From positions 62,001 through 126,000 of the forward strand of contig JARVGI010000001.1 of assembly GCA_029762625.1 (NCBI GenBank): a DNA stretch of 64,000 nt, written 5' to 3'. The notes under the pieces were generated by a model. The model did not search any database. It was not told the origin of the DNA and was given only the letters and a program-made list of their open reading frames with translations. The translations under genes were made by a program, and so were the position numbers. Origin of the DNA: Methanomicrobiaceae archaeon (GTDB lineage: Archaea; Halobacteriota; Methanomicrobia; Methanomicrobiales; Methanomicrobiaceae). Positions 42,907 through 55,910 of the stretch are shown one piece after another; the stretch's first letter is position 1, and each line of letters opens with the position of its first letter.

Positions 42907-43065
42907 ATGGCGAAAAAGAGTGGCGGAAGGCTGGTTTCCTCCGCAGGTCTTGTGACCTATTATGATAGCGAGGACAAGCGCTCGTTTCACATATCACCGA
43001 TATCGGTGCTTGTCGCAGGCGCAATTATCGGCGTCATCACCATCGCGCTGAACTTCATCTACTGA
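42907..43065 (+). CDS. preprotein translocase subunit Sec61 beta (SecG)
   Basis: A 52-residue tail-anchored subunit of the Sec translocon. It opens with MAKKSGGRLVSSAGLVTYYD, the highly conserved archaeal Sec61 beta head, followed by one C-terminal transmembrane helix (SVLVAGAIIGVITIALNF). Its stop overlaps the stop of the convergent cofE gene by seven bases. Confidence 0.95.
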   Translation: MAKKSGGRLVSSAGLVTYYDSEDKRSFHISPISVLVAGAIIGVITIALNFIY

Positions 43066-43805
43066 ATCCTTTTTTTGAGTGCGGCACGGGTAATGTCCTC
43101 GTCCGCGGTAAAATACAGTTCATCGTGCCCGGTCCACGCAGGACAGTTTCGAAAGACCACCGCGGGCACGCCGCGGCTGCTCTCGCCCATGACGAAGTTC
43201 GCAAACCCGGCGATTTCATCGACGACCGCTTCTTCGGTGATCCTGAGCACATGGCCGAAGAGGTCGGTATCGCCGCGGTAATCCCGGATCGCCGGCGTCC
43301 CGCTCCACCCGATCGCGGTGCCGGTCTGTCCCCGCCGGAAGGAGCGGCCGCAGGTGTCCGTAAGGATGACCCGCACATCGGCTCCCGTGATGCCGAAAAT
43401 CCCTTCGCGGATCTCCTGCGCGGCAGCCATGGGGTCCGACGGGAGGAGGATGAGCACCCCGTCCTCCACGTTGCTCTGGTCGACCCCCGCACGCACGCCG
43501 ACGTGGCCGCAGGCGAGCGCGGAGAGAACGAACGGCGCTTCCAGCAGGATATCCTCGGATTCGTCGAGCACCGCCTGGATGAACCGGGGGTCTTCACCGC
43601 ACATCGCCCCGATGCGCTCTGCCCGCTCGCCGGGCTCGATGGACGCGAGGGTGCGCGTATAGCCCTTCGCCTTGGAAAGGACCGACGAGGCGACGCAGAG
43701 GATATCGCCATCCCCGAACGCAACGCGGTCGCAGATGAGGGCCGGCAGGTCGTCGCCCTCTCTGATGAGGGGCAGTCCTTCCACCGGCGCTATTTCGATA
43801 TGCAT
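43059..43805 (-). CDS. cofE: coenzyme F420-0:L-glutamate ligase CofE
   Basis: Adds the glutamates to F420-0 with GTP. The 248-residue protein matches the family: ICVASSVLSKAKG-like LCVASSVLSKAKG near residue 36, GVRAGVDQSNVEDGVL, ILTDTCGRSFRRGQTGTAIG and GWSGTPAIRDYRG. There is no fused FMN domain as in bacterial FbiB. F420 is the main hydride carrier of this kind of methanogen. The upstream spacer to 44010 holds no gene. Confidence 0.95.
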   Translation of the reverse strand: MHIEIAPVEGLPLIREGDDLPALICDRVAFGDGDILCVASSVLSKAKGYTRTLASIEPGERAERIGAMCGEDPRFIQAVLDESEDILLEAPFVLSALACGHVGVRAGVDQSNVEDGVLILLPSDPMAAAQEIREGIFGITGADVRVILTDTCGRSFRRGQTGTAIGWSGTPAIRDYRGDTDLFGHVLRITEEAVVDEIAGFANFVMGESSRGVPAVVFRNCPAWTGHDELYFTADEDITRAALKKRIQ

Positions 43806-44010
43806 ACTGCTATGGTCGGTGGTTGACTACAAAAAAGGCTGCGTCCCGTCCCCGCGATGAGGCGGCGCATTCGGGAAAAGGCGGGTGCGGCGCGGCCGCG
43901 CGGTGGACGGGGGCGCCCCCTGTTCCTGCCGTCGCGCCGCACCCGCGTTCCATTGTTTTATGGGATCCCTCACAGATACTGATAAGGAATTCATACAAGG
44001 TGATAGCGCA

Positions 44011-44340
44011 ATGAAAATTGGAGTTGCAAGGGAAGGGAATATGGTCTCTGCGCATTTCGGCCACTGCGAGGGATTCGTGCTATTCGACGTGGAAGACGGC
44101 AGGATCATCGCACGGGAGGAGATCCAGAACCCCGGTCACGCTCCCGGCGTGCTGCCCCAGCTGATGGCCGACAACAACGTGGACGTGATGCTCGCCGGCG
44201 GCATGGGCCCGAAAGCCGTGGACAACTTCTGTATGCACGGGATCGAGGTCTACATCGGCGTTTCCGGCGAGATCGACCAGGTCGTCCGTGACTTCCTCGA
44301 CGGCAACCTCGAGCAGGGAAGCAACGTCTGCCACCATTAG
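44011..44340 (+). CDS. NifX/NifB-C-terminal-like (dinitrogenase FeMo-cofactor-binding domain) protein
   Basis: A 109-residue protein with MKIGVAREGNMVSAHFGHCEGF, VMLAGGMGPKA and a Cys-His-His C-terminus, the fold that binds iron-molybdenum cofactor precursors in NifX and NafY. Methanogens carry several stand-alone copies and most are not tied to nitrogen fixation; metal-cluster delivery is a guess. GGTGAT lies 8-13 bases before the ATG. A TATA-like TGTTTTATGG lies near 43953. Confidence 0.88.
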   Translation: MKIGVAREGNMVSAHFGHCEGFVLFDVEDGRIIAREEIQNPGHAPGVLPQLMADNNVDVMLAGGMGPKAVDNFCMHGIEVYIGVSGEIDQVVRDFLDGNLEQGSNVCHH

Positions 44341-44513: not shown

Positions 44514-44786
44514 ATGACGATGTATACGGTAATCCGGTGCCCGGGATGCCATACCTTTACCTACATCGACCGGTACCAGCACTGGAAACTCTGCCATACC
44601 TGCGGAGAAGCGATCGACGTCTCGAAGGCGCCGGTGTATGTCGAGGTGGAGAGCCACCGCGATGCGGAGGAGATCGCCGATGAACTGGAGACCTACCTCC
44701 ACACAAGCGGGAAGGACGATCTCACGCGGGAGGAAAAAGAGCGGTTGCGCGCCGGGTATGCACGCCTGGTACGAAGCCGGATGTAA
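44514..44786 (+). CDS. DUF1922-family rubredoxin-like protein
   Basis: A 90-residue protein. IRCPGCHTFTYID and LCHTCGEAID form a rubredoxin-like metal knuckle pair (CPGC...CHTC) typical of DUF1922, followed by a charged helical tail. GGTGAT lies just before the ATG at 44514, and ATTATTTATC about 30 bases upstream is a plausible TATA box. The function of the family is not known to me. It converges with the zinc-ribbon gene at 44787. Confidence 0.85.
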   Translation: MTMYTVIRCPGCHTFTYIDRYQHWKLCHTCGEAIDVSKAPVYVEVESHRDAEEIADELETYLHTSGKDDLTREEKERLRAGYARLVRSRM

Positions 44787-44936
44787 CTACCAGAGTTTGC
44801 CGCATCCCGGGCAGACCATGGATATTTTTCTCCCACAATGAGGGCACCAGATCTGGCCCTTCTGTGTCTGTGCCATGGGCCGCCCGCACTTTTTGCAGTA
44901 CAGCGACGCCTCGTAACCGCAAGAATGTCGGATCAT
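44787..44936 (-). CDS. 49-residue double zinc-ribbon protein at the end of the eha-fwd operon
   Basis: A very small gene. The translation has CGYEA at the start, then CKKCGRP, IWCPHCGRK and MVCPGCGKLW: three CxxC knuckles and one extra Cys at residue 6, enough for one or two zinc or iron sites. The ATG at 44936 shares its first base with the TGA of fwdC (TGATG), so its translation is coupled to formylmethanofuran dehydrogenase. The three CxxC motifs make chance unlikely. A role in assembly or regulation of the complex is only a suggestion. Confidence 0.75.
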   Translation of the reverse strand: MIRHSCGYEASLYCKKCGRPMAQTQKGQIWCPHCGRKISMVCPGCGKLW

Positions 44937-45706
44937 CAATCCATATATTTATAGTTTCTGATAAAAAGGGTTCCTTTTCCCCTGTTTGCGATATCGCCGG
45001 CAAACCGGGTGAAGACATCGCCGCCCACCGTTTCCCGGCCGATGTTCCTGAACGTGGGGATCATGTCGTACACGGTCCCGTGGACGTACGCCCTCCCGCC
45101 GCTCATGTTGGCGCAGGCCATCGACGTATCGCCCATGATGGTCAGCACGCCGTCCTTCATGTCGACGCCGGCGAGGTCCCCTGCGTTGCCGTGGACGATC
45201 ACGGTGCCGCCTGCCAGCGTTTCGGCGGTAAAGTCTCCCGCATCGCCGAATACCTCAACGGTGCCCCCGCGCATCCCCCGCTTTTCCCCGCGGTAACCGG
45301 CGGCACAGAAGTCGCCCGCGCTGCCGTGGCAGCGGATCGTCCCGCCCCGCATCTCGCGGCCCAGCCATGCATCGGCGTTGCCGTCGATGACGATCTCCCC
45401 CGCGCTCATGAAATTGCCGCAGTGCATGCCGATGTCGCCCATGACATGGATGCGGCCCCCGTCCATGTACTCTCCCACGCGCTTTATCCGGGAACTGTCG
45501 CCGAGGATGGTGATCTCCACCCCGTCGACCGAGGCTGCCTCTCCCTCGATGGCGACGGAAAAGATCTCCTCCAGCGCAAGCTCCTTGTTACCTCGAAAGA
45601 CGCTCAGGCCGTCGGTTTCCTCGAAGAAGGTGCGGGGCACGATCTTCTCGGCCTCGATGGGAAGGTGGGGCTTTCGCCGCGGCCTGACCTCCAGCGTCAC
45701 CTTCAT
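44936..45706 (-). CDS. fwdC: formylmethanofuran dehydrogenase subunit C
   Basis: A 256-residue subunit with the glutamate-synthase-alpha-like beta-helix: repeated G-x-x-G-x-x-x-G turns such as GGRIHVMGDIG, AGEIVIDGNAD, RGGTIRCHGSAG and GGTVIVHGNAG. In the Fwd complex it helps to place FwdA against FwdB. The start shares an ATGA with fwdA. Length is normal for the subunit. Confidence 0.95.
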   Translation of the reverse strand: MKVTLEVRPRRKPHLPIEAEKIVPRTFFEETDGLSVFRGNKELALEEIFSVAIEGEAASVDGVEITILGDSSRIKRVGEYMDGGRIHVMGDIGMHCGNFMSAGEIVIDGNADAWLGREMRGGTIRCHGSAGDFCAAGYRGEKRGMRGGTVEVFGDAGDFTAETLAGGTVIVHGNAGDLAGVDMKDGVLTIMGDTSMACANMSGGRAYVHGTVYDMIPTFRNIGRETVGGDVFTRFAGDIANRGKGTLFIRNYKYMD

Positions 45707-47403
45707 AGCCGCGCCTCCGTCTCGATGCAGAGGTTGCGCTGGAGGTACTCCTCCTGCACGGGGTAGTTGCGCATCCGGATGGTGTAGTTCTTGTCGAAGT
45801 TCCTGGCGAACTCGGGGTCGTGGTCCATGCTGTGGTTCTCGGAGATGCGAGGGTTCACCCAGATGGTGGTGTTCTCGCCGTCGACCATGCACGTGCCCCG
45901 GCAGCAGACCACCCGGCCGCGCTTGATGGTGTAGTCCGTCTGGCCAAAAGCCCTGATCACCTCTTCCGGTGCTTTCGCAGGATCGATCTCATTGATATTG
46001 AGGGGATAGATGGCGATATCCGCATCGGCGCCCTCGCCGAGGTGGCCTTTGCCGATATCCACGATTCCCAGGGCCTTTGCCGGCGCAGCGCGGGTCATGA
46101 TGGCGATCTCCTTCCATGTCAGCTCCCGGTCGAGGGCGGCGAGGGGCACGTTGTGCTCGGTATCGGGGTGGACCGTCTGAAACACCCCATTGCGGTAGCG
46201 TTTGCTCATCAGGAGCGCGATGATCTCGGGATACTTCACGAAGGGGGCTCCGTTCGGGTTGTCGGTAGCGAGGATGCACTGCCATGGATTGTCGGTGAGC
46301 AGGGCCAGCTCGAGGCCGATGGCCCACATGATGGAGTTGACGAGATTTTTTCGGTTGTAGTAGACCGGGATGATCCCCGATCCCGTCTCCAGCTCCACGT
46401 CGTGGTTGCTCCACTTGTTATGGTAGAGGCGGTAGAGGTTGAACTCCATGGGGCCGTCGGCGGTCATGGTGGTGGTCTTGCCGAACATCACCTGCCCCAT
46501 GTCCATCACGATCTGGGGCTTTTGGTTGATCGCCCGGCAGATCTCCTCGGATCGGGAGCAGATGTCCCTCCAGCTCGACCCGCCGTAGGCGTGGAACTGG
46601 ACGTGGGTGGCGTAGAGGCTCTGCCGTTTGTCATTTGTGTTCGGGACGAGGTCGAAGGTCTCCAGCGTGGTCTCGTAGTTGCCGGGCTTGCCAAGGCAGT
46701 TGCAGTGCAGGTGGACCGAGTGGGGGAGGTTGAGCATCTCGTTCGCCTCGATCATCGCCCGGATGATCTCGGCGGGCGTCACCTCAAAATGGGGGACGAC
46801 GTCGCGTATGGATGAGACGTCTTTTCCCCATCCCCACGCCTCGGTCCCCCCGGGGTTGGTCAGCTTGATGGCAAAGCCCTTCACCGCGGAGAGCGTCCAA
46901 CCGACGATCGCCGCCACACGCTTGATATCGCCGTCGTGGATCGCCTGCATGACCGGCCAGTTCCCGTCGAAGAGGGTGTTGGCCATCATATCCTGCAGGG
47001 GGGTATAGGCGAACTCTTCGTGCGTGTGGCGCGCCTCGAGCGGCGCCATTGCCCCTTCGAGGGCGGTCGTGTAGCCCATCGCGCTGTAGCGGTAGCTCGT
47101 GCCGTAGGTGGTGGGCACGCTGTAGCCGGAGGTGGCGTGCATGTGACCGCGGCGTGCCGTCCGTCCCGCACGCATGTCCTCCGGGCTCATGTACCGCCCG
47201 AAGTTCACCTTCGTGCCGCAGACATGGGTGTGCGCGTCGATCCCCCCCGGCATGGTGAGGCTGCCGCCCGCATCGATGACCTCCGCGCCGCTGCCCACGC
47301 TCTCCACGATCTTGCCGTCCCGGACGGCGATGTCCATGATCTCCCCGCAGATATCATTGATGGGATCGATCACGCAGGCGTTGCGAATAAGCAGTTCCGT
47401 CAT
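45703..47403 (-). CDS. fwdA: formylmethanofuran dehydrogenase subunit A
   Basis: The amidohydrolase-like subunit that condenses formate with methanofuran at a binuclear metal centre. The 566 residues have GGIDAHTHVCG (His58, His60), SVHLHCNCLG, and TDNPNGAPF in the C-terminal half. Adjacent order fwdD-B-A-C and ATGA overlaps on both sides show co-translation. Confidence 0.96.
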   Translation of the reverse strand: MTELLIRNACVIDPINDICGEIMDIAVRDGKIVESVGSGAEVIDAGGSLTMPGGIDAHTHVCGTKVNFGRYMSPEDMRAGRTARRGHMHATSGYSVPTTYGTSYRYSAMGYTTALEGAMAPLEARHTHEEFAYTPLQDMMANTLFDGNWPVMQAIHDGDIKRVAAIVGWTLSAVKGFAIKLTNPGGTEAWGWGKDVSSIRDVVPHFEVTPAEIIRAMIEANEMLNLPHSVHLHCNCLGKPGNYETTLETFDLVPNTNDKRQSLYATHVQFHAYGGSSWRDICSRSEEICRAINQKPQIVMDMGQVMFGKTTTMTADGPMEFNLYRLYHNKWSNHDVELETGSGIIPVYYNRKNLVNSIMWAIGLELALLTDNPWQCILATDNPNGAPFVKYPEIIALLMSKRYRNGVFQTVHPDTEHNVPLAALDRELTWKEIAIMTRAAPAKALGIVDIGKGHLGEGADADIAIYPLNINEIDPAKAPEEVIRAFGQTDYTIKRGRVVCCRGTCMVDGENTTIWVNPRISENHSMDHDPEFARNFDKNYTIRMRNYPVQEEYLQRNLCIETEARL

Positions 47404-48689
47404 AGTCCCTTGGCCTCCTTCATCCTCGCAAACATATCACCCAGCACCTCGGTATCACTGGGAAGGGTCGGCTCGATGACCTTCTTGACCCTGAAGGGGA
47501 CGCCGTCCATACGATACGCGGTTCCCTCGGCGTCGATGCCGGATACGGCCACCGGAATCTGCACGTTCGCCATGGCGGTGGTCATGGTAGGCACCGGATC
47601 GATGACCACGGTGGGGATGTCCGCGAGGTGCTCGACACACTTCCGGGGGAAGTGCGCACCGGGATCGCTGCCGATGATCATGCAGGCATCGCACTCCTTG
47701 CGGGCCAGGATGTCGATCGCGGACGTCTCTCCCGGGTTGTAGAAGGCGATTCCCCGGCAGAAGTCGATGGCGTAGGGGTAGCCGGTCATCCAGGTGAATA
47801 CCTCGTTGGAGCCGTACACGTTCCAGTGGCCCCGCATGGGAGTGATGGTGAATTTCGTGTGCCGGGAAAGTTCGTCGACCAGTTCGATGGCGTTGCGGAT
47901 ATTTTTGTATTTCCCTTTCGTCATGGTCAGCCCGAGACCAAAGAAGACGGCTCCGAATTTGGCGTCCTTGCACATCCTCACGATCCGCTCGAGCTGGGAT
48001 CGGGGGACGCCGGCGACCGACGGGGGTATCATATCGCCCTTCCCCCGGACGATCGCCCGCAGCGCGGAGAGGACGGCGTAGTCTCCGCCCTGCTTGATCC
48101 TGACGAACTCATCGGCAACCCGCGCGGTCTCGGTCTCCCGGACATCGACCACGACGACCGTTCGATCCCGAAACGCGTTGTCGAGGAAGTAGCCGTCGGC
48201 ATAGGTAGTGTACCGGCTCATGTGGCGGGGGTGCGCTTCGAGGGGATTGCATCCCCAGTAGATGACCACATCGGCACGGTTTTTCACCTGCCCCAGCGTG
48301 CACCCGGGGTGGCCGACCTCCTGGATGGCGAGAATGGAGGGGCCGTGGCAGACGGAGGTGGTGCTGTCGATGATGCCACCCACGAGCTCGCACATGTGCA
48401 CCCCGATGCACTGGGCCTCGCCGTGCGTCCCGCTCCACCCATAGAGGAGGGGGCGGTCGGCATCGAGGAGCATATCCACCGTATACCGGATGGCCTCGTC
48501 ATAGTTGATATCCTCCCAGCCGCCGTCGGTTCTCCGGATCGGGGAGGTGAGCCGTTCTTTGCCCATGAACTTGGCATTCGCGAGGGTGCAGCCGTTGTCG
48601 ACCCCCAAGATCCGGTTGTCCTCCACGGTGATCTCGAGGTCGTCGCACAGGCAGCCGCAGAACGGGCATATGACATCACATTTTTTCAT
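47400..48689 (-). CDS. fwdB: formylmethanofuran dehydrogenase subunit B (tungsto/molybdopterin catalytic subunit)
   Basis: Reduces CO2 to formate at a bis-pterin W or Mo site. The 429 residues begin with a [4Fe-4S] motif CPFCGCLCDD; the metal ligand is Cys114 in STTSVCHGP, so this is the cysteine and not the selenocysteine form. The pterin-binding domain continues in FwdD, as in the split FwdB/FwdD type. It overlaps fwdD by 14 bases. Confidence 0.95.
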   Translation of the reverse strand: MKKCDVICPFCGCLCDDLEITVEDNRILGVDNGCTLANAKFMGKERLTSPIRRTDGGWEDINYDEAIRYTVDMLLDADRPLLYGWSGTHGEAQCIGVHMCELVGGIIDSTTSVCHGPSILAIQEVGHPGCTLGQVKNRADVVIYWGCNPLEAHPRHMSRYTTYADGYFLDNAFRDRTVVVVDVRETETARVADEFVRIKQGGDYAVLSALRAIVRGKGDMIPPSVAGVPRSQLERIVRMCKDAKFGAVFFGLGLTMTKGKYKNIRNAIELVDELSRHTKFTITPMRGHWNVYGSNEVFTWMTGYPYAIDFCRGIAFYNPGETSAIDILARKECDACMIIGSDPGAHFPRKCVEHLADIPTVVIDPVPTMTTAMANVQIPVAVSGIDAEGTAYRMDGVPFRVKKVIEPTLPSDTEVLGDMFARMKEAKGL

Positions 48690-49068
48690 AGCGCTGGCCT
48701 CCGATCTTCTCCATGAGGTCCCACTGGGTCGACCGCTCAGCGTCGGTGTATTCCAGTTCCACCGGGATGCTCTTGAAGTCCGGCATGCCGGTGGAGTGGG
48801 TATGGGAAGGGATGATATGGTTGGCGAAGGGGCCCATGGGCACGAAGATCATGCCTCTCCGCAGGTCTTCACAGTTCACCGTCCTGAGCACCACTGATCC
48901 GCATTCGCTGGTCACTTCGACGTGCTCCCCCTCCTCCATGTCCAGATCCAGGAGATCGAGCGGATGGATAAAGCAGGTGGAGGTCTCCTCGGAATAGCCG
49001 CGGTGGAATTTATGCTCGACATGGCGGCCCTGGGTGATGCTCCTGCCGGTGTTGAGAATGAATTTCAC
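48676..49068 (-). CDS. fwdD: formylmethanofuran dehydrogenase subunit D
   Basis: A 130-residue molybdopterin dinucleotide-binding beta-barrel domain (FILNTGRSITQG, GEHVEVTSECGSVVL, MGPFANHIIP) that completes the catalytic site of FwdB. The GTG at 49068 makes a GTGA overlap with the ferredoxin gene and is the only start that fits the family. Confidence 0.93.
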   Translation of the reverse strand: MKFILNTGRSITQGRHVEHKFHRGYSEETSTCFIHPLDLLDLDMEEGEHVEVTSECGSVVLRTVNCEDLRRGMIFVPMGPFANHIIPSHTHSTGMPDFKSIPVELEYTDAERSTQWDLMEKIGGQRYEKM

Positions 49069-49676
49069 CCTCCCTCCTCCGCAGTATGGATCGCCTCGAT
49101 GACCCGCGCCACCCGGATGGCACTGTTCGGGCACGCCTCCTCGCATGTCTTGCACCCGGTGCACTTCTCCTCGTGGAGGATGCGCAGCTCGCCGCCCTTG
49201 ACCCGCATGATCACCTCGTCGTTCTCGCCGGTCCCCGTGGCGGCGAGCTGGGGGTCCTCCTCCTTGTTGACGGGGCAGGCGACCGAACAGTTCCCGCAGC
49301 GCATGCAGAGGGTGGAGTCGACGGTGAGGTGGAAGGTCCACGTGTAGCCGGTGTTCTCGAAGAACTGGGATTCAAGGATCCTGCCGCTCATCAGCACGCC
49401 CTCCGGGCACGCCTCCACGCAGAGGCCGCACCGGATGCAGTGGCCCGGGTAGATGACGGGATTCCACCCCTCGTCCTCTTTGAGCACCTCGATGGCGCCC
49501 GGCGTGGGGCAGATCATCATGCAGGCAAGGCAGTGGGTGCACTCCTTGCCGGTGAGCCGCGGGTAGTCCCGGAAATGGGGCGGGGTTTCATAGGGCGCGG
49601 TCTTCACGAACAAAAAGTTCCGCAGCCATTCGCCCCGGGCCATCTCCCGCAGGTAGTAGGACAACGACGTGGCCAT
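49065..49676 (-). CDS. four-cluster ferredoxin subunit linking Eha and Fwd (EhaP/FwdF-like)
   Basis: A 203-residue iron-sulfur protein with four CxxCxxCxxxCP motifs: CTHCLACMMICP, CIRCGLCVEACP, CMRCGNCSVACP and CTGCKTCEEACP, hence up to four [4Fe-4S] clusters. It starts one base after the stop of the hydrogenase large subunit gene and overlaps fwdD. The position suggests that it carries electrons between the hydrogenase module and formylmethanofuran dehydrogenase. Whether it belongs to Eha (as EhaP) or substitutes for FwdF is not decidable from sequence. Confidence 0.88.
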   Translation of the reverse strand: MATSLSYYLREMARGEWLRNFLFVKTAPYETPPHFRDYPRLTGKECTHCLACMMICPTPGAIEVLKEDEGWNPVIYPGHCIRCGLCVEACPEGVLMSGRILESQFFENTGYTWTFHLTVDSTLCMRCGNCSVACPVNKEEDPQLAATGTGENDEVIMRVKGGELRILHEEKCTGCKTCEEACPNSAIRVARVIEAIHTAEEGG

Positions 49677-49677
49677 G

Positions 49678-50766
49678 TTAGCGCTCCGTGCAGGCGATGC
49701 AGGGGTCCGCGCTGATGAAAGTGGAGGTGACATCGGCGGCGGACGATACCCCCTCCAGCATGTAGTGCGCACACGATTCGATGTTCATGATGGAAGGCGT
49801 CCTGACGGCGATATCGACAATCCTGCCGTATTCGTCGGTCTTTACGTAGTAGGTGAGTTCCCCCCGCGGGGCTTCCCCCGCGTGCGTGGCCTCGCCCGCT
49901 TGTATCGTGCCGCCGCCCCGGATCGGGCCCGGCACCATGTTCGCAAGGCAGCGCCGGATGAGGTCGATGCTCTGGAACACCTCATCGAACCGTAGCATGA
50001 CGCGCGCGTAGTTGTCGCCGTCCTCGTAGGAGAGGGGTGTGAACCCGAGCTTCTGGTAGGTCGGGTGCTCGCACCGGCGGTCGCTCTCGGGAATCCCCGA
50101 AGCGCGGGCCACCGGGCCCACCCCGTGCGCCTCGATCACGTCCTCCCGCGAGATGATCCCGACGCCTTTGCTCCGCTGGGCGACGAGCGGGCCGTGTTCG
50201 AACATCCCCACGTACCGACGGAGCTCGTGTTCCACGTGGTCGAGCGCCGCCTCGAGCGTGGGCCGGTCCTCGTCCCGCAGGTCGAAGCGGACGCCGCCGG
50301 GCACCATGTAGGCGCAGGTCACCCGGGCGCCGGTGATGAGCTCGAGCATGTCCATCGCCGTCTCCCGCAGGTTGAGCAGGTACATCCCGAGCGTCTCGTG
50401 CTCGATGGTATAGCAGTAGGAGAAGTTGGCGAGGATGTGGCTCTGGATGCGGTCGAGTTCGTTGACGATCACGCGCAGGTATGCCGCCCGCTCGGGCACC
50501 TCGATATCGCTGATCTTCTCGAGGGTCTCGATGCACACCATATTGTGGATCACCGAACAGATCCCGCAGATCCGCTCGGCGAGGAACATCACCTCCTGCC
50601 ACGGGCGCCCCCGCATGATCCGTTCGATGCCTTTCTTGACGTAGCCAAGGTCCATCTCCGCAGAAATCACCCGCTCCCCTTTCGTCTCGCACCGGATGCG
50701 GGCGGGTTCCTTGAAGCACGGGTGCAGCGGCCCTATGGGAAGTGAAACGTCGACGGTCTTTTTCAT
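49678..50766 (-). CDS. ehaO: energy-converting hydrogenase large (catalytic) subunit EhaO
   Basis: The NiFe subunit of a group 4 membrane hydrogenase. The 362 residues hold both nickel motifs, RICGICS (about residues 67-73) and DPCIACTER at the very C-terminus. Nothing follows the DPCxxC by more than three residues, so no peptide is removed on maturation, as usual in group 4. Overlaps the small subunit gene by an ATGA. Confidence 0.94.
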
Positions 50767-51218
50767 GATTGCTTCTCCTCGTAATCTTTGAACACCAGCG
50801 GCGCGAGGGAGAGCACCGCATTGAGGATCTCGGTGGGGCGGGGCGGGCACCCCGGCACTTCGGCGGCGATGGGGATGTGCTTGGCGACCGGCGGGTCGAC
50901 GTACGCGCCCCGCCGGTTGAAGACGCACCCCGAGATCGGACAGTTGCCGATGGCGATGGCGACTTTGGGCTCCGGGATCTTGTCCCAGATGCTCTTGAGC
51001 TTGTCCTCCCACTGGGGGGTGAACGCACCGGTCACGAGCAGGACATCCGCCTCCCGGGGGTTGTTGTGCACGTAGATCCCGTACTGCTCGATGTCGTAGC
51101 GGGGGGCCAGCATGGCGAGCACCTCGATATCGCACCCGTTGCAGGACCCCACATTCACGTAGGAGACGTGAATGGACTTTGACCGGACGGTATTCTTGAT
51201 CGACTGCAAAAAACTCAT
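50763..51218 (-). CDS. ehaN: energy-converting hydrogenase small subunit EhaN
   Basis: A 151-residue small subunit with [24 protein letters not shown] and [11 protein letters not shown], the four cysteines that bind the proximal [4Fe-4S] cluster, as in EchC and NuoB. No signal peptide. Overlaps the genes on both sides by four bases. Confidence 0.94.
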
Positions 51219-51604
51219 GAACGGATCAACTCCCGTATCTGCGCCAGCGCGTGTGCGATTGATTCGTCGTGTGCATCGTCCGTTGCGATGCGTTCCCGTG
51301 TGTATTCTGCGATATCCTGCATCCGGGTGTCCTCGGCCAGGGGGATGTAGACCGTGAGCAGCTCGACGCCAAGCGCCCGGTCGACATCGTCGCCGGCATC
51401 GCCCCGCGCAAGCCAGCCCTCGTAGCGGGCGGGGAGGTTTTCGAGCAGGATCATGTCGAGGCGCTCGATCAGGCGTCTCCTGATCTCGGGCTTTCTCATC
51501 CCGTAGCGGGCGGAGAGCTCGGCGACAACCCATTCGTGCCGCGTGCTGGCGAGGATATTGAACTGCATGCCCCGGAGATCCTTCTCGTAGAGGTACTCTA
51601 CCAT
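51215..51604 (-). CDS. ehaM: Eha subunit M (DUF1959)
   Basis: A 129-residue soluble protein matching DUF1959 ([47 protein letters not shown]), a subunit known only from the Eha hydrogenase of methanogens. It is this protein together with DUF2104-2109 type membrane genes that identifies the complex as Eha rather than Ech or Mbh. Confidence 0.88.
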
Positions 51605-51849
51605 GCCCCACCCCCGTAGCCCGCGATTGCGTAGGCCCCGAAGAGGAGCACGCATATCCACAGGAGGGCCATTTCGTATCTCTTCAGGGCTATTTCGTCC
51701 CGTATCAACGTAAGGGCGATGGTCGCGGCAAGGAAGATCCCCGCCACGATCGCCTGCATTGCGATCGATGCGGTCGCCGTCAGTTCCAGCAGCGCCACGG
51801 CGATGTAGGCGAGCGCACCGGTAAACAGCACCCCCCGGATGAGGCTCAT
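51598..51849 (-). CDS. ehaL: Eha membrane subunit L-like
   Basis: An 83-residue protein with three hydrophobic helices at about 5-22, 28-47 and 59-79. Its place between the NuoH-like subunit and EhaM, and its size, fit EhaL (DUF2104). ehaK, which lies here in Methanothermobacter, is not seen. The letter is assigned by position. Confidence 0.7.
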
Positions 51850-52691
51850 GCGAAGAGCACCCCCACGATGACGATATAGACCGCAACGATCCCCATGGTG
51901 AGGCTCTGCACGGTCACGGTGTCGTAGGGGGAGAGCATGGGGGAGAACGCGCAGATAAAGGAGAGCGAGAGCAGCAGCAGGAGCATGAGGGCGAGCACCA
52001 GCAGAAACGGCAGCGGGCCGAGGAACAGGAGGACGAACGCGTAGAGGAGCACGTAGGTCTTCAGCCCGAACGCCACCTCGAGGCCGGCCCGCCACACGCC
52101 GAAATGCTCGGTCATGTTGCCGCTCACGATCTCCTTGCTCTCGATGATGGCGAAGGGCGAGTAGTGCATCTTCGAGAGGATGACCACGTACAGGGCGACG
52201 GCTGCGGGGAAGGCGAATACGAGGAGCGGGCCATGCTCCGTCTGCCAGGCGAGGATGTCGGTGAGCATCATGGAGCCGGTGAACAGGTAGATCGCCCCGA
52301 CGGTGGCAAAGAGCGGGAGCTCGGAGGCAGCCGACATGACCGACCGGATCGCCCCGAACTTGCCGTAGGGCGAGCCCGAGGAGAGGCCCATGCCGTGCTC
52401 GACGATCTTGTGGAGCAGGTAGATGCCGAAGAGGAGCAGGAGGCTCCCCCGGGTCACCAGCACGATGAGCGCCGCACTCCAGATACCGATGGCGACGAGC
52501 ACCACCCAGACGAAGAGTGTCTGGCTCGCCGTTTTCGGGATCCACGTCTGCTTGAAGGAGAACTTCAGGGTATGCAGGATCTCCTGCCAGATGGGGGGGC
52601 CGGGGCGTCCCTGGATGCGGGCGATGACCTTGCGGTGGATGCCGTGGAAGAGCAGGCCGACGAAGGTCCCGAAGATGAGATAGTCGAACAT
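51846..52691 (-). CDS. ehaJ: Eha membrane subunit J (NuoH-like)
   Basis: A 281-residue integral membrane protein homologous to complex I NuoH and EchB. It opens with HGIHRKVIARIQGRPGPPIWQE, the conserved cytoplasmic loop, and has FAIIESKEIVSGNMTEH, the glutamate-rich loop that contacts the hydrogenase module. About eight helices. It anchors the catalytic subunits to the proton/sodium channel. Confidence 0.92.
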   Translation of the reverse strand: MFDYLIFGTFVGLLFHGIHRKVIARIQGRPGPPIWQEILHTLKFSFKQTWIPKTASQTLFVWVVLVAIGIWSAALIVLVTRGSLLLLFGIYLLHKIVEHGMGLSSGSPYGKFGAIRSVMSAASELPLFATVGAIYLFTGSMMLTDILAWQTEHGPLLVFAFPAAVALYVVILSKMHYSPFAIIESKEIVSGNMTEHFGVWRAGLEVAFGLKTYVLLYAFVLLFLGPLPFLLVLALMLLLLLSLSFICAFSPMLSPYDTVTVQSLTMGIVAVYIVIVGVLFA

Positions 52692-52692
52692 G

Positions 52693-52896
52693 TCAGTACC
52701 CCAGGAACGGGATGTCCTCCTCCCCTTCGGACGCGTTCCACCACAGGCCCAAAAAGAGCACGAACACGGGGAACGCGGCGATGAGCAGTAGTTCGGCGAG
52801 CCAGGGCACGAGGTACCCGGTTCTCCATCCGGCTCCGGCGGCGAGGCAGACGGCCCCCGCCGCGATGGTGATGAGCAATGCGTTCTCTCGTTTCAT
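52693..52896 (-). CDS. ehaI: Eha small membrane subunit I-like
   Basis: A 67-residue protein with two hydrophobic helices (about 6-22 and 27-52) and an acidic end (EGEEDIPFLGY). It lies one base before ehaJ and six after ehaH. The assignment to EhaI is by position and size only. Confidence 0.65.
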   Translation of the reverse strand: MKRENALLITIAAGAVCLAAGAGWRTGYLVPWLAELLLIAAFPVFVLFLGLWWNASEGEEDIPFLGY

Positions 52897-52902
52897 GGGA
52901 CA

Positions 52903-53571
52903 TCACATCGATATGACGATTTCCACCACTCGCAGGAAGAGGAGCAGCGAGCTGACGTGGATCATGAGCACGTACGGTGCGCCCGGCGCACGCGTGATCT
53001 CCGCTTTTGCCACATAGAACGGGGCCATGCCCTCGCCCATCACCCCGAGCACCAGGAATATCTTGGCAACGAGCGGCACGGCGATTGCAGGCCCGAAGAG
53101 CTCCCACATGCTGAGCGTGCCGGTGGTGGCGAGGATGATGGCGGCGCTGCCGAACAGGGGCACGGTGGCGATCATGGCCACGATGCCGTACTGGAAGGCC
53201 GCATTGAGCACGTGCCGGTTCCGGTAGGCGGCGACGATGCCGATGTTGGTAATACCCACCATCGAGCAAAAGAGGGTGAAATTGAACACGTCCCCGCTCA
53301 TCATCGCCCCGAGCGTCGCCATGCCGCAGGCAAGGGCCATGAACCGCTGGAACCTGAACTGGCCGGGCGTGATGTCCTTGGTGTAGAAGGCGTCGCCGCC
53401 GAAGGCGAAGTCCACCTGCCGCTCGGGCCTGCTGATGATCGCCAGGATGGTGAAGAGCAGGGCGAAGGTGAAGAGCACCGCGGTATAGACGGTGAAATAG
53501 TTGACGATGTCGCCGAACTCGAGCACGAAGAGCTCAGGTCCCTCGATGGTGGTCACGGGCAGCTCAAACAT
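52903..53571 (-). CDS. ehaH: Eha membrane subunit H (antiporter-like)
   Basis: A 222-residue membrane protein resembling the central part of NuoL/M/N antiporter subunits, with GDVFNFTLFCSMVGITNIG, a lysine in PLVAKIFLVLGVMGEGMAPFYVAKAE-type segments (LVAKIFLV and MAPFYVAKAE), typical of the proton path. Shorter than full antiporter subunits, as is EhaH. The ATG at 53571 overlaps ehaG by eight bases. Confidence 0.88.
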   Translation of the reverse strand: MFELPVTTIEGPELFVLEFGDIVNYFTVYTAVLFTFALLFTILAIISRPERQVDFAFGGDAFYTKDITPGQFRFQRFMALACGMATLGAMMSGDVFNFTLFCSMVGITNIGIVAAYRNRHVLNAAFQYGIVAMIATVPLFGSAAIILATTGTLSMWELFGPAIAVPLVAKIFLVLGVMGEGMAPFYVAKAEITRAPGAPYVLMIHVSSLLLFLRVVEIVISM

Positions 53572-54172
53572 TCGCACCACCCCGCATGGTCCCCACCAAT
53601 GACATCTTCCCCGCCACCTTGAGCAGGATCGCAGCACCGGCGATGAGCACGCCGAAGAACCAGTACTGGGGGAGGAGCATGAAGATGAAGAAGGCCACGA
53701 TCCACATGGCCCATGCGTACCCGCTCAATGTCTCGAGGAGGGCGAACCGCTCGTCGTGGCCCTTGCAGACGAAATAGAAGATCACGCCGATCCCGGCGAC
53801 GGCCCCTCCTGAAAAGCCGGAGAGGAGGATGCCATAGCCGACGAGGGCGAGGGCGAGCAGGCCCGGGGCGCTGTCCATCACCTCGATCTGCAGCATCCGA
53901 TCCGGCTGGCGTACGAGCCCCTCGCGGACCAGAAATACCTCCGAGATCGCCATCAGCTCGGAGATCCCCACCACCAGCCCCGGGAGGATCAGCGCTTCGG
54001 CGAGATCGGTTGCCACCAGGGCGATGAGGGCGAGGGCGAGGATCTCGGCAAGATCGGTGAGCAGGATACGGTGAAGGTCGTCGTTCTCCCGCACCAGCGC
54101 CCAGAACCCGATGACGATCGATGCGAAGACCGCCAGCAGCCCGAAGGCGTAGATCCCTTCCATGCTACTCAT
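53564..54172 (-). CDS. ehaG: Eha membrane subunit G (DUF2105)
   Basis: A 202-residue protein with six hydrophobic helices. Acidic residues sit inside the helices (LLTDLAEILALALIALVATD, LAEALILPG, GISELMAISEVFL), a pattern of ion-translocating subunits; EhaG (DUF2105) is the match by position, size and pattern. Overlaps ehaF and ehaH by eight bases each. Confidence 0.85.
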   Translation of the reverse strand: MSSMEGIYAFGLLAVFASIVIGFWALVRENDDLHRILLTDLAEILALALIALVATDLAEALILPGLVVGISELMAISEVFLVREGLVRQPDRMLQIEVMDSAPGLLALALVGYGILLSGFSGGAVAGIGVIFYFVCKGHDERFALLETLSGYAWAMWIVAFFIFMLLPQYWFFGVLIAGAAILLKVAGKMSLVGTMRGGANV

Positions 54173-54638
54173 CCCTCCTGAACAGGTGGGCGGCGATGGC
54201 GAAGGCCACGAAGAGGATGCTGGTCTCCGCCACGGTGTCGAGGCCGCGCGTGTTATACAGGATCTCGTCGATGATCCCGCCCGGGTGGGCGACGATGGTC
54301 GTGCCCATGTAGGGTGTGTGGTCGGCGATGAACCGGGTGACCGGCGTCAGGTACGCAGTGACGTACCCGAGGTACGGCGAGTTGTCCGGGTACTGGGCCT
54401 GCACGTCGGTGGTGTTGAACGGCGTGCCGCCCCGCTGGTAGGGGTTGAGGGGGTCCGCCGCATCAATGGTCTTCGGGTAGAGCTGGTCGTCGTGGTAGAG
54501 CAGGGAGGGGAGCGTGAATGCGCCGAGCACGGTCACGGCGATGAAGAGGGCGGCATAGAGCCCCGCAAGGTTCTCCAGTTCCGATATGGTACGGGAGATC
54601 CTGCTGATCCATGTCCCGCGTCCTTCGCGGCGTTTCAT
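54165..54638 (-). CDS. ehaF: Eha membrane subunit F (DUF2106)
   Basis: A 157-residue protein with one helix near residues 26-48, a hydrophilic loop with DPLNPYQRGGTPFNTTDVQA, and a second helix region near the C-terminus (TRGLDTVAETSILFVAFAIA) that resembles the MrpB/MbhF DUF4040-type motif D-T-x-x-E. EhaF fits by position and size. Confidence 0.85.
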   Translation of the reverse strand: MKRREGRGTWISRISRTISELENLAGLYAALFIAVTVLGAFTLPSLLYHDDQLYPKTIDAADPLNPYQRGGTPFNTTDVQAQYPDNSPYLGYVTAYLTPVTRFIADHTPYMGTTIVAHPGGIIDEILYNTRGLDTVAETSILFVAFAIAAHLFRRDE

Positions 54639-54871
54639 GCGGCATTCCTCCTCTCGACGACGCGGACGATCACGAAGGTGGAGATGGCGGTGACCGCAAC
54701 AAAAGTGAGCAGCGCAAGGGTCTCATCGAAGGAGAGCATGATGAGGAGCAGACCCCATGCCGGGATCTCGAGGTTGATGAGGCGGGTGAGGTAGGTCCTG
54801 GGGCGGGGGAAGGCTGCCGCCGCCGTGCCGATCACCAGGATGGCAATCCCGAGGAAGAACTCCACGCTCAT
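54635..54871 (-). CDS. ehaE: Eha membrane subunit E (DUF2107)
   Basis: A 78-residue protein with two helices (about 5-22 and 37-70), including EIPAWGLLLIMLSFDETLAL with buried acidic residues. Position and size fit EhaE. ATGA overlap with ehaD, four-base overlap with ehaF. Confidence 0.82.
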   Translation of the reverse strand: MSVEFFLGIAILVIGTAAAAFPRPRTYLTRLINLEIPAWGLLLIMLSFDETLALLTFVAVTAISTFVIVRVVERRNAA

Positions 54872-55098
54872 GGACCATCCCTCCTGCAGACGAGCAGCAC
54901 GATGATGGTCGTGACCGGGACGATGAGGGCGACGGCGACCGCCACATCGAGGTAGCCCCGCACCACCACGAAAGGAAGCACGCCGGCGGCAAGCACGCCG
55001 ATCCCGATCAGCTTGTCGAACGGGTCTCGCTTGAAGGCGGCGCTCACCGTGCCGATGAGGGCGATGGCGGCGAACACGTAGAGGACCGCCTCAATCAT
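54868..55098 (-). CDS. ehaD: Eha membrane subunit D (DUF2108)
   Basis: A 76-residue protein with three short helices and the middle motif FDKLIGIGVLAAGVLPFVV, reminiscent of the small NuoK/MnhC-like antiporter subunits. The ATG at 55098 overlaps ehaC by eight bases. Assigned to EhaD by position and size. Confidence 0.82.
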   Translation of the reverse strand: MIEAVLYVFAAIALIGTVSAAFKRDPFDKLIGIGVLAAGVLPFVVVRGYLDVAVAVALIVPVTTIIVLLVCRRDGP

Positions 55099-55357
55099 CC
55101 TCGGTGCTCCCTCCTGCAAATGTGCTCGCGATGGCATTGGACTCCAGCGTCGACCCCACGAAAAATGCCGCGGCCGCCAGCAGTGCCAGCGGGTGGCGAA
55201 TGAGCAGGGCGATGGCCGCAGCGATGGCAAAGCTGAGGACGTTGAGGTAGGGGAGTTTGCGGAGCGTATTGTTCTCGACCGCCACCCTGAGTGCGGCGAA
55301 CAGCCCGACCAGCACCACGATGATGAGTGCGATCTCCTCACCGGTTATGCCCGCCAC
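55091..55357 (-). CDS. ehaC: Eha membrane subunit C (DUF2109)
   Basis: An 88-residue protein with three helices (about 8-26, 38-55, 58-72) and RKLPYLNVLSFAIAAAIAL, similar to MnhG/EhaC-type subunits. Overlaps ehaB by 13 and ehaD by eight bases. Confidence 0.82.
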   Translation of the reverse strand: MAGITGEEIALIIVVLVGLFAALRVAVENNTLRKLPYLNVLSFAIAAAIALLIRHPLALLAAAAFFVGSTLESNAIASTFAGGSTEDD

Positions 55358-55830
55358 CCCCAGAGGGTGGCGAGAAGCCTGCTCGCGCCGGTGTGGGAGA
55401 GGCCCTGGATGGTGAGGATGGCGAGCACCATACCGGCGATGAACTCCTCCGCGCCGAAACCCACCTGGGTGAACCCGAATACGACGAACGTGGCAAGTAT
55501 CGCCCCGGTCGTACCTGCGTAGCCGGGGTCATGGCATATCCTGTTGCCGAGGTAGACGAGGAGGGCGGCCGCGAGCCCTCCGGGAATCCCTGCGATGTAC
55601 ACGCCGCAGGCCGCAAGGAGCGTACCTGCGGAGGCGTCCGGAGAGCAGACGATGTTGCCCATCATGTACCCGCCATGCAGCGCCCCGCCCTCCTCCTCGA
55701 TCGATCTCCCGATCGCGGTGGCACCACTCACGCCTCCCTTTTCGGGCAGTTTGAACAGTACATCGATGGTAATGAACAGAAGCCAGCTCACGAGCGATGC
55801 GGCCAAAATGCGTGCTATCACATCGAGCAT
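55345..55830 (-). CDS. ehaB: Eha membrane subunit B
   Basis: A 161-residue membrane protein with helices at about 5-27, 70-92, 105-125 and 130-150. A cytoplasmic segment holds GGYMMGNIVCSPDASAGT. It is the first gene of the operon: no ehaA is seen upstream. ATGGA directly follows a GGAGAAATGGA leader segment, and a TATA element lies at 55886-55895. Confidence 0.8.
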   Translation of the reverse strand: MLDVIARILAASLVSWLLFITIDVLFKLPEKGGVSGATAIGRSIEEEGGALHGGYMMGNIVCSPDASAGTLLAACGVYIAGIPGGLAAALLVYLGNRICHDPGYAGTTGAILATFVVFGFTQVGFGAEEFIAGMVLAILTIQGLSHTGASRLLATLWGWRA

Positions 55831-55885
55831 TCCATTTCTCCGGACTTAAAAGGTGGGATTTTCTCAATCAACCTCTGGTGGTCAA

Positions 55886-55895
55886 TAGAATAAAT
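55886..55895 (-). promoter_or_regulatory. TATA box of the eha-fwd operon
   Basis: The minus strand reads ATTTATTCTA about 55-65 bases upstream of the ehaB ATG, giving a leader of roughly 30-35 bases. This seems to be the only promoter for the following 11 kb, since no later intergenic gap is longer than six bases. Confidence 0.55.
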
Positions 55896-55910
55896 GTTTT
55901 CATGCTAACA

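Follow-up and report, generated by a model that had tools for sequence, protein, structure and literature searches.

Electrons at about -500 mV are required for the initial reduction of CO2 in methanogenesis. A possible way in which the hydrogenase Eha delivers them is suggested by a row of 19 genes in a 64,000-nucleotide stretch of DNA from a Methanomicrobiaceae archaeon (assembly GCA_029762625.1, contig JARVGI010000001.1, positions 62,001 to 126,000). The whole stretch is called the window here, and coordinates without a prefix refer to it. The row occupies the minus strand from 55830 to 44787 and brings together genes for Eha, for a four-cluster ferredoxin (fd4, 49065..49676, -) and for formylmethanofuran dehydrogenase (Fwd). 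The operon has precedents in Methanomicrobiales, eha and fwd genes having been reported side by side in 2009 (PMC2686161) and 2017 (PMC5563889). New here are the joint loss of Eha and this Fwd across Methanomicrobiales and a ferredoxin which looks two-ended. At a rough probability of 0.55, Eha works with a dedicated second Fwd in an anaplerotic role, and fd4 is the fixed Eha subunit which feeds it.

Conservation of the arrangement was analyzed in 135 Methanomicrobiales genomes, this one included, using EhaO, the FwdA of the operon and fd4 as queries. An EhaO orthologue was found in 108 of the 135 genomes and the operon-type FwdA was present along with it in 106, while 27 genomes have neither, two have EhaO only and none has FwdA only (the Fisher test of this co-occurrence ignores relatedness). 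The ferredoxin is missing from exactly the 27 genomes which have no EhaO. Among the two genomes with EhaO only, the cluster of G079 keeps fwdD, fwdB and fwdC and not fwdA, and in G121 the contig ends right after fd4. The order read in G079 (L056) is eha-fd4-fwdD-fwdB-fwdC, and the sole FwdA found in that genome is a paralogous one. In each of the genera g16, g20, g23 and g25 some species have both genes and others lack both; judged by this distribution within genera, Eha and this Fwd were lost together repeatedly. Linkage is equally widespread. In 94 of the 106 genomes, the present one among them, fwdA follows ehaO in the same orientation and within 6 kb, with the same spacing in most; about 20 of these loci were read for their complete gene order. 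As ehaO is followed by a same-strand fwdA in 94 genomes, the arrangement is not due to chance. The other 12 genomes comprise three with broken or incomplete contigs and nine in which the genes are truly apart, all belonging to family f1 (g2, g4, g5, g6). The apparent separation was set aside in three cases: G132 is broken within fd4, at contig ends; in G009 a contig of 3.3 kb is taken up by the fwd genes; and G039 yielded only a partial FwdA, from a contig end region. That Eha and the operon Fwd are partners is therefore well supported. The original prediction, made from the letters of the window, had proposed functional coupling of the two and a look at gene order in Methanomicrobiales; co-loss and linkage favor the coupling, and the order proved to be conserved.

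In the nine unlinked genomes fwd and eha are separated by hundreds of kb or are on different contigs, which provides a natural experiment on the allegiance of the ferredoxin. Both loci were read in eight of them. The fd4 gene follows ehaO in 8/8, and the zinc-ribbon gene which closes the operon is beside eha-fd4 in 8/8 as well, directly after fd4 in seven and about 2 kb further on in G068. Because both genes stay with ehaO when fwd moves, both were assigned to Eha. Thus fd4 is an Eha subunit. The view of it as a bridge that stands free or on the side of Fwd was discarded, as it is beside ehaO in every unlinked locus read. The bridge drawn between the two complexes in the original prediction is plausible given the two halves of fd4 described below, but the ferredoxin does not stand midway and belongs genetically to Eha. 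In the FwdA tree the unlinked sequences make a single clade within the eha-linked clade (100/100), so one relocation explains all of them, and the eha-linked clade was inherited vertically. In five of the eight genomes the moved fwd block is back to back with another fwd set. No complete FwdG was found in the approximately 13 kb read around each moved block. Likewise, neither fwdF nor fwdG is present among the open reading frames (ORFs) of the 19-gene row, as had been noted from the start.

The ferredoxin has four C-x2-C-x2-C-x3-C motifs and can be divided in two halves. Residues 1-104 match MbhN/NuoI subunits in PDB, and an MbhN encoded in an Mbh-type hydrogenase operon is the best non-self match of this half in the genome. 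Residues 105-203, with 2x[4Fe-4S], have both FwdG genes as their two best matches in the genome (E 1.8e-9 and 3e-8; next 6e-5) and match FwdG/FwdF in PDB. In the fold search this half aligned with FwdG 5t5i_G at a template modelling (TM) score of 0.86 by target length (78 columns, 1.7 A, 40% identity). The AlphaFold model of fd4 has a mean predicted local distance difference test score (pLDDT) of 80.5 and a predicted TM score (pTM) of 0.54, and leaves the mutual orientation of the halves unset. The position of fd4 ahead of fwdD in the operon is parallel to that of FwdG, which is directly ahead of FwdD in another fwd set of this genome (C25) and in the M. marburgensis order fwdHFGDACB (PMC3087415). 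By these matches fd4 looks like a two-ended electron plug, with one end resembling a hydrogenase exit and the other an Fwd inlet. Cys49 in the first cluster motif is swapped for E, A, H or S in many genera while His48 is nearly invariant (window:49065-49676), which suggests that the first cluster is unusual or incomplete. Genus g25 possesses a second full-length fd4 paralogue of about 52% identity away from eha (L075:10270-10968; also L076); it is divergent from a small sulfite-reductase-like gene, and no hydrogenase or fwd genes were found beside it.

Variant loci outside the order were also found. Two genomes of genus g81 contain Eha, the two-domain fd4 and fwdDBAC, no FwdG being seen beside the latter, and in this genus the two-domain ferredoxin occurs without fwd next to eha. 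As the two-domain form exists there without adjacency, origin of the FwdG-like half together with fwd adjacency in the order is unsupported. G157, also outside the order, has Eha with a ferredoxin of 103 aa which consists of the N-half only and is placed after ehaO (L087:9218-9529), with no fwd genes beside it. The idea of a plug agrees with these few genomes but is not proven by them. They bear also on the chief alternative, in which the coupling is only functional: Eha would reduce free ferredoxin or a loosely bound fd4 shuttle, Fwd would draw on this pool, and the operon would serve joint expression. The two-domain fd4 without adjacent fwd in g81 and the nine f1 genomes with distant fwd speak for such a pool, and Gilmore 2017 (PMC5563889) proposes separate ferredoxin pools, not a complex. 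Against it speak the fused exit and FwdG-like architecture of fd4, the lack of FwdG both in the operon and near the moved fwd blocks, and the presence of fd4 in every eha locus read. We regard this alternative as possible, and the dedicated feeding of Fwd by an Eha subunit as the better explanation.

The Fwd part of the operon consists of fwdDBAC. FwdB (47400..48689, -; W/Mo-pterin subunit of the Cys type), FwdA (45703..47403, -; amidohydrolase subunit) and FwdC (44936..45706, -) all exceed the curated cut-offs of their models (TIGR03129, 608 bits; TIGR03121, 779 bits; TIGR03122, 221 bits). FwdD (48676..49068, -) starts with GTG and matches PF01568; its NF042908 score of 105.9 bits is below the model cut-off of 175. 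Alignments with 5t5i, 8rja and 9sw6 chains, including 5t5i_B for FwdB, showed that the CHGP (Cys-His) motif and the cluster cysteines of FwdB and the HxH, Lys, HLHCN and TD motifs of FwdA are conserved, residues which we take to be catalytic. By score the closest solved FwdA and FwdB are the chains of 8rja, presumably the Fwd of Ca. Ethanoperedens.

FwdA is present three times in the genome. One further set (C3, L012:2834-14189) runs FwdG, FwdF, HdrCBA, MvhD and FwdDBAC, then a methyl-CoM reductase gene, in a long methanogenesis cluster, and the other (C25) is FwdG-FwdDBAC. With these two sets in the genome, one of them having FwdF/G and HdrABC-MvhD, the operon Fwd represents a second isozyme which lacks FwdF/G. 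A recent copying of the Hdr-linked Fwd was rejected, as the operon FwdA is only 41-48% identical to its paralogues, its clade is set apart with 100/100 support, and its best solved matches are 8rja and then Methanothermobacter chains, with the Fmd of M. hungatei lower. The existence of two other sets and the vertical inheritance of the FwdA clade would agree with a relic, in which the clustering was inherited from the ancestor of the order and the Fwd is redundant. This explanation is disfavored and very improbable: fd4, the fwd genes and the zinc-ribbon gene have a dN/dS (ratio of nonsynonymous to synonymous substitution rates) of 0.05-0.34 when compared with the same-genus genome G060, the motifs are intact, the loss is coordinated with that of Eha, and expression is reported in relatives (PMC11201294, PMC12008871). 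All genes tested are under purifying selection, and the low dN/dS indicates that the operon copy is not decaying. The original prediction was to fall if fwd genes with fwdF/G were duplicated elsewhere and the operon copy was silent; the duplicates do exist, while the operon copy is under purifying selection and eha/fwd expression is reported from related Methanoculleus. Synonymous divergence from the same-genus genome (L020) is about 0.08-0.10 from ehaG to ehaN, 0.5 in fwdB and 1.3 in fwdD, and this unevenness may reflect recombination within the operon.

Under the reading with a dedicated Fwd, EhaN would pass electrons to the N-half of fd4, as for MbhN/NuoI in related complexes, and the C-half would substitute for the absent FwdG and deliver them to FwdB, at least transiently. 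Eha would spend the ion gradient and lift the electrons of H2 to about -500 mV, and the lifted electrons would reduce CO2 to formylmethanofuran. The cycle would in this way be refilled whenever the electron-bifurcating Fwd set at another locus, which is linked to Hdr, does not keep up. We infer that electrons flow from H2 to Fwd. The reverse, in which formylmethanofuran oxidation feeds Eha with H2 formation and ion export in vivo, is conceivable because both enzymes are reversible in principle and reverse operation is known from an Fwd of an ethane oxidiser (PMC11656701). Against it stand the hydrogenotrophic nature of the order, the drain on the methanogenic route that net formylmethanofuran oxidation would cause, and the case of Methanococcus, whose Eha has a forward, anaplerotic role (Lie 2012, cited in PMC5563889). 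Reverse flow is hence a very improbable alternative.

How closely the partners of a dedicated Eha-Fwd pair would be joined is a separate matter. Reasoning from the sequences, the FwdG-like half of fd4 may dock directly on FwdB to pass the electrons, and a stable Eha-Fwd supercomplex is plausible. Production of the two complexes in a fixed ratio, which the original prediction also put forward, is possible. It can be suggested only tentatively that fd4 plugs Eha physically into its own Fwd, giving a membrane-anchored complex which would make formylmethanofuran from H2, CO2 and the ion gradient. Several points weigh against the reading as a whole. The nine genomes with fwd apart from eha evidently cope, which implies that strict co-translation is unneeded, and the two-domain fd4 of g81 without adjacent fwd implies that the C-half may serve any acceptor. 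In G157, where fd4 is reduced to the N-half, no FwdG was seen next to the Hdr-linked Fwd either. The likeness to FwdG consists of modest scores, as 2x[4Fe-4S] domains are short and alike, and a model with a pTM of 0.54 does not fix how the halves lie with respect to each other. The physical complex is itself a proposal drawn from sequence. Even so, a hydrogenase exit subunit which carries an Fwd-type inlet domain and is inherited and lost with one Fwd isozyme is a candidate for a direct path. If true, a hydrogenase subunit took over the part of FwdG, and a plugged Eha joins Hdr bifurcation and the F420-reductase module as a way to feed Fwd. The shared inheritance and loss would also provide a rule for separating anaplerotic from bifurcating Fwd in any Methanomicrobiales genome.

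Earlier reports agree with much of this arrangement. Anderson 2009 (PMC2686161) found eha adjoining formylmethanofuran dehydrogenase genes in 3/3 Methanomicrobiales then sequenced and proposed that Eha reduces its ferredoxin. The clusters of Methanoculleus marisnigri, Methanocorpusculum labreanum and Methanospirillum hungatei are like the present operon in having eha and adjacent fmd/fwd genes. The present analysis concerns another genome and works out the gene junctions, the division of the ferredoxin into two parts, and the different allegiances which the ferredoxin and fwd have. According to Gilmore 2017 (PMC5563889), Methanocorpusculum parvum has one Fwd cluster together with Eha and a second together with HdrABC; an anaplerotic (Eha) and a bifurcating (Hdr) Fwd were proposed, the same functional split as proposed here. 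Only two Fwd genes accompany Eha in M. parvum, and genus g13 shows the same pattern. The eha locus of g13 has only fwdA and fwdC after the ferredoxin, and fwdD-fwdB is separate and can be fused. In G013 (L072:7513-9237) a 574-aa fwdD-fwdB fusion away from eha is closest to the operon Fwd clade, similar cases are at L071 and L073, and an extra fwdDB of G030 resembles them. In 'Ca. Methanoculleus ammoniitolerans' (PMC11201294; related report PMC12008871; 2024-25) fwd is beside Eha among several fwd loci, and transcripts of methanogenesis genes and Eha are reported in Methanoculleus; ferredoxin and co-loss analyses were not found in the two texts. The Hdr-linked Fwd/Fmd megacomplexes of M. hungatei (7bkb) and Methanothermobacter (5t5i, 9sw6) share the FwdABCD core with the operon Fwd. 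Their inlet is FwdG with the polyferredoxin FwdF, whereas the operon Fwd has neither and has a hydrogenase-linked ferredoxin instead. The Ca. Ethanoperedens Fwd, coupled to F420 reductase (PMC11656701), is a precedent for an Fwd with another electron module attached, but differs in this partner and in the direction, formylmethanofuran oxidation. Methanothermobacter has eha (MTBMA_c07840-08030) and fwd (c01390-01450) at separate loci (PMC3087415); these gene numbers agree with the separation claimed for that genus in the original prediction.

The hydrogenase is of the Eha type (group 4h). All its genes are on the minus strand, and the membrane subunits follow in the expected order: ehaC (55091..55357, PF09882 DUF2109), ehaD (54868..55098, PF09881 DUF2108), ehaE (54635..54871, PF09880 DUF2107), ehaF (54165..54638, PF09879 DUF2106), ehaG (53564..54172, PF09878 DUF2105), ehaH (52903..53571, PF10125 NADHdeh_related, a NADH dehydrogenase subunit N-related membrane subunit) and the NuoH-like ion-channel subunit ehaJ (51846..52691, PF00146 NADHdh). 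ehaB (55345..55830) was assigned by order and tblastn conservation in relatives, and ehaI (52693..52896) by its position, kept in most relatives; neither has a Pfam match. A small membrane gene (51598..51849) in the ehaK/L place and a 129-aa soluble gene (51215..51604) in the ehaM place are also kept in relatives. ehaA was not seen in the operon, and the same is reported for the order (PMC2686161). The small [NiFe] hydrogenase subunit, ehaN (50763..51218, PF01058 Oxidored_q6), has the CNGC, GNCP and GCPP cluster-ligand motifs. The large subunit, ehaO (49678..50766, Complex1_49kDa/NiFeSe), aligns over its full length with P. furiosus MbhL 6cfw, and in alignment with this chain and FHL 7z0s RICGIC and the C-terminal DPCIACTER are intact, i.e. 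both Ni-binding Cys pairs. Polyferredoxins of the Methanothermobacter type, EhaP (6x[4Fe-4S]) and EhaQ (10x[4Fe-4S]) (PMC3087415), are not in the operon, and the single four-cluster protein is in their place. As Eha ferredoxins are reported to differ by lineage (PMC9635834), this marks a variant of Eha and does not exclude the complex from it.

All 19 minus-strand ORFs were confirmed in place from the ehaB start (55830) to the stop of the zinc ribbon (44787), in accordance with the one-strand row first described. Neighboring genes overlap by 1-14 bp at 15 of the 18 junctions; the other three have gaps, of 6 bp in ehaH/ehaI, the largest, and 1 bp each in ehaI/ehaJ and ehaO/ferredoxin. A GGAG ribosome-binding site precedes the ehaB start. 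The BRE/TATA-like (transcription factor B recognition element/TATA box) block ATGAAAACATTTATTCTATTG (55883..55903, -), 53-73 nt upstream of ehaB, is kept in three relatives (L008, L009 and L010, the EhaO of L010 being 77%) and is the probable archaeal promoter of the operon, with a transcription start predicted near 55865. The 49-aa zinc ribbon (44787..44936, -) was annotated from weak DZR matches and its position in the unlinked genomes. A convergent plus-strand gene (44514-44786) has its stop abutting the last stop of the operon. Further on, the genes at 43885-44340 and 43059-43805 resemble by eye a dinitrogenase iron-molybdenum cofactor-type protein and F420 gamma-glutamyl ligase, respectively.

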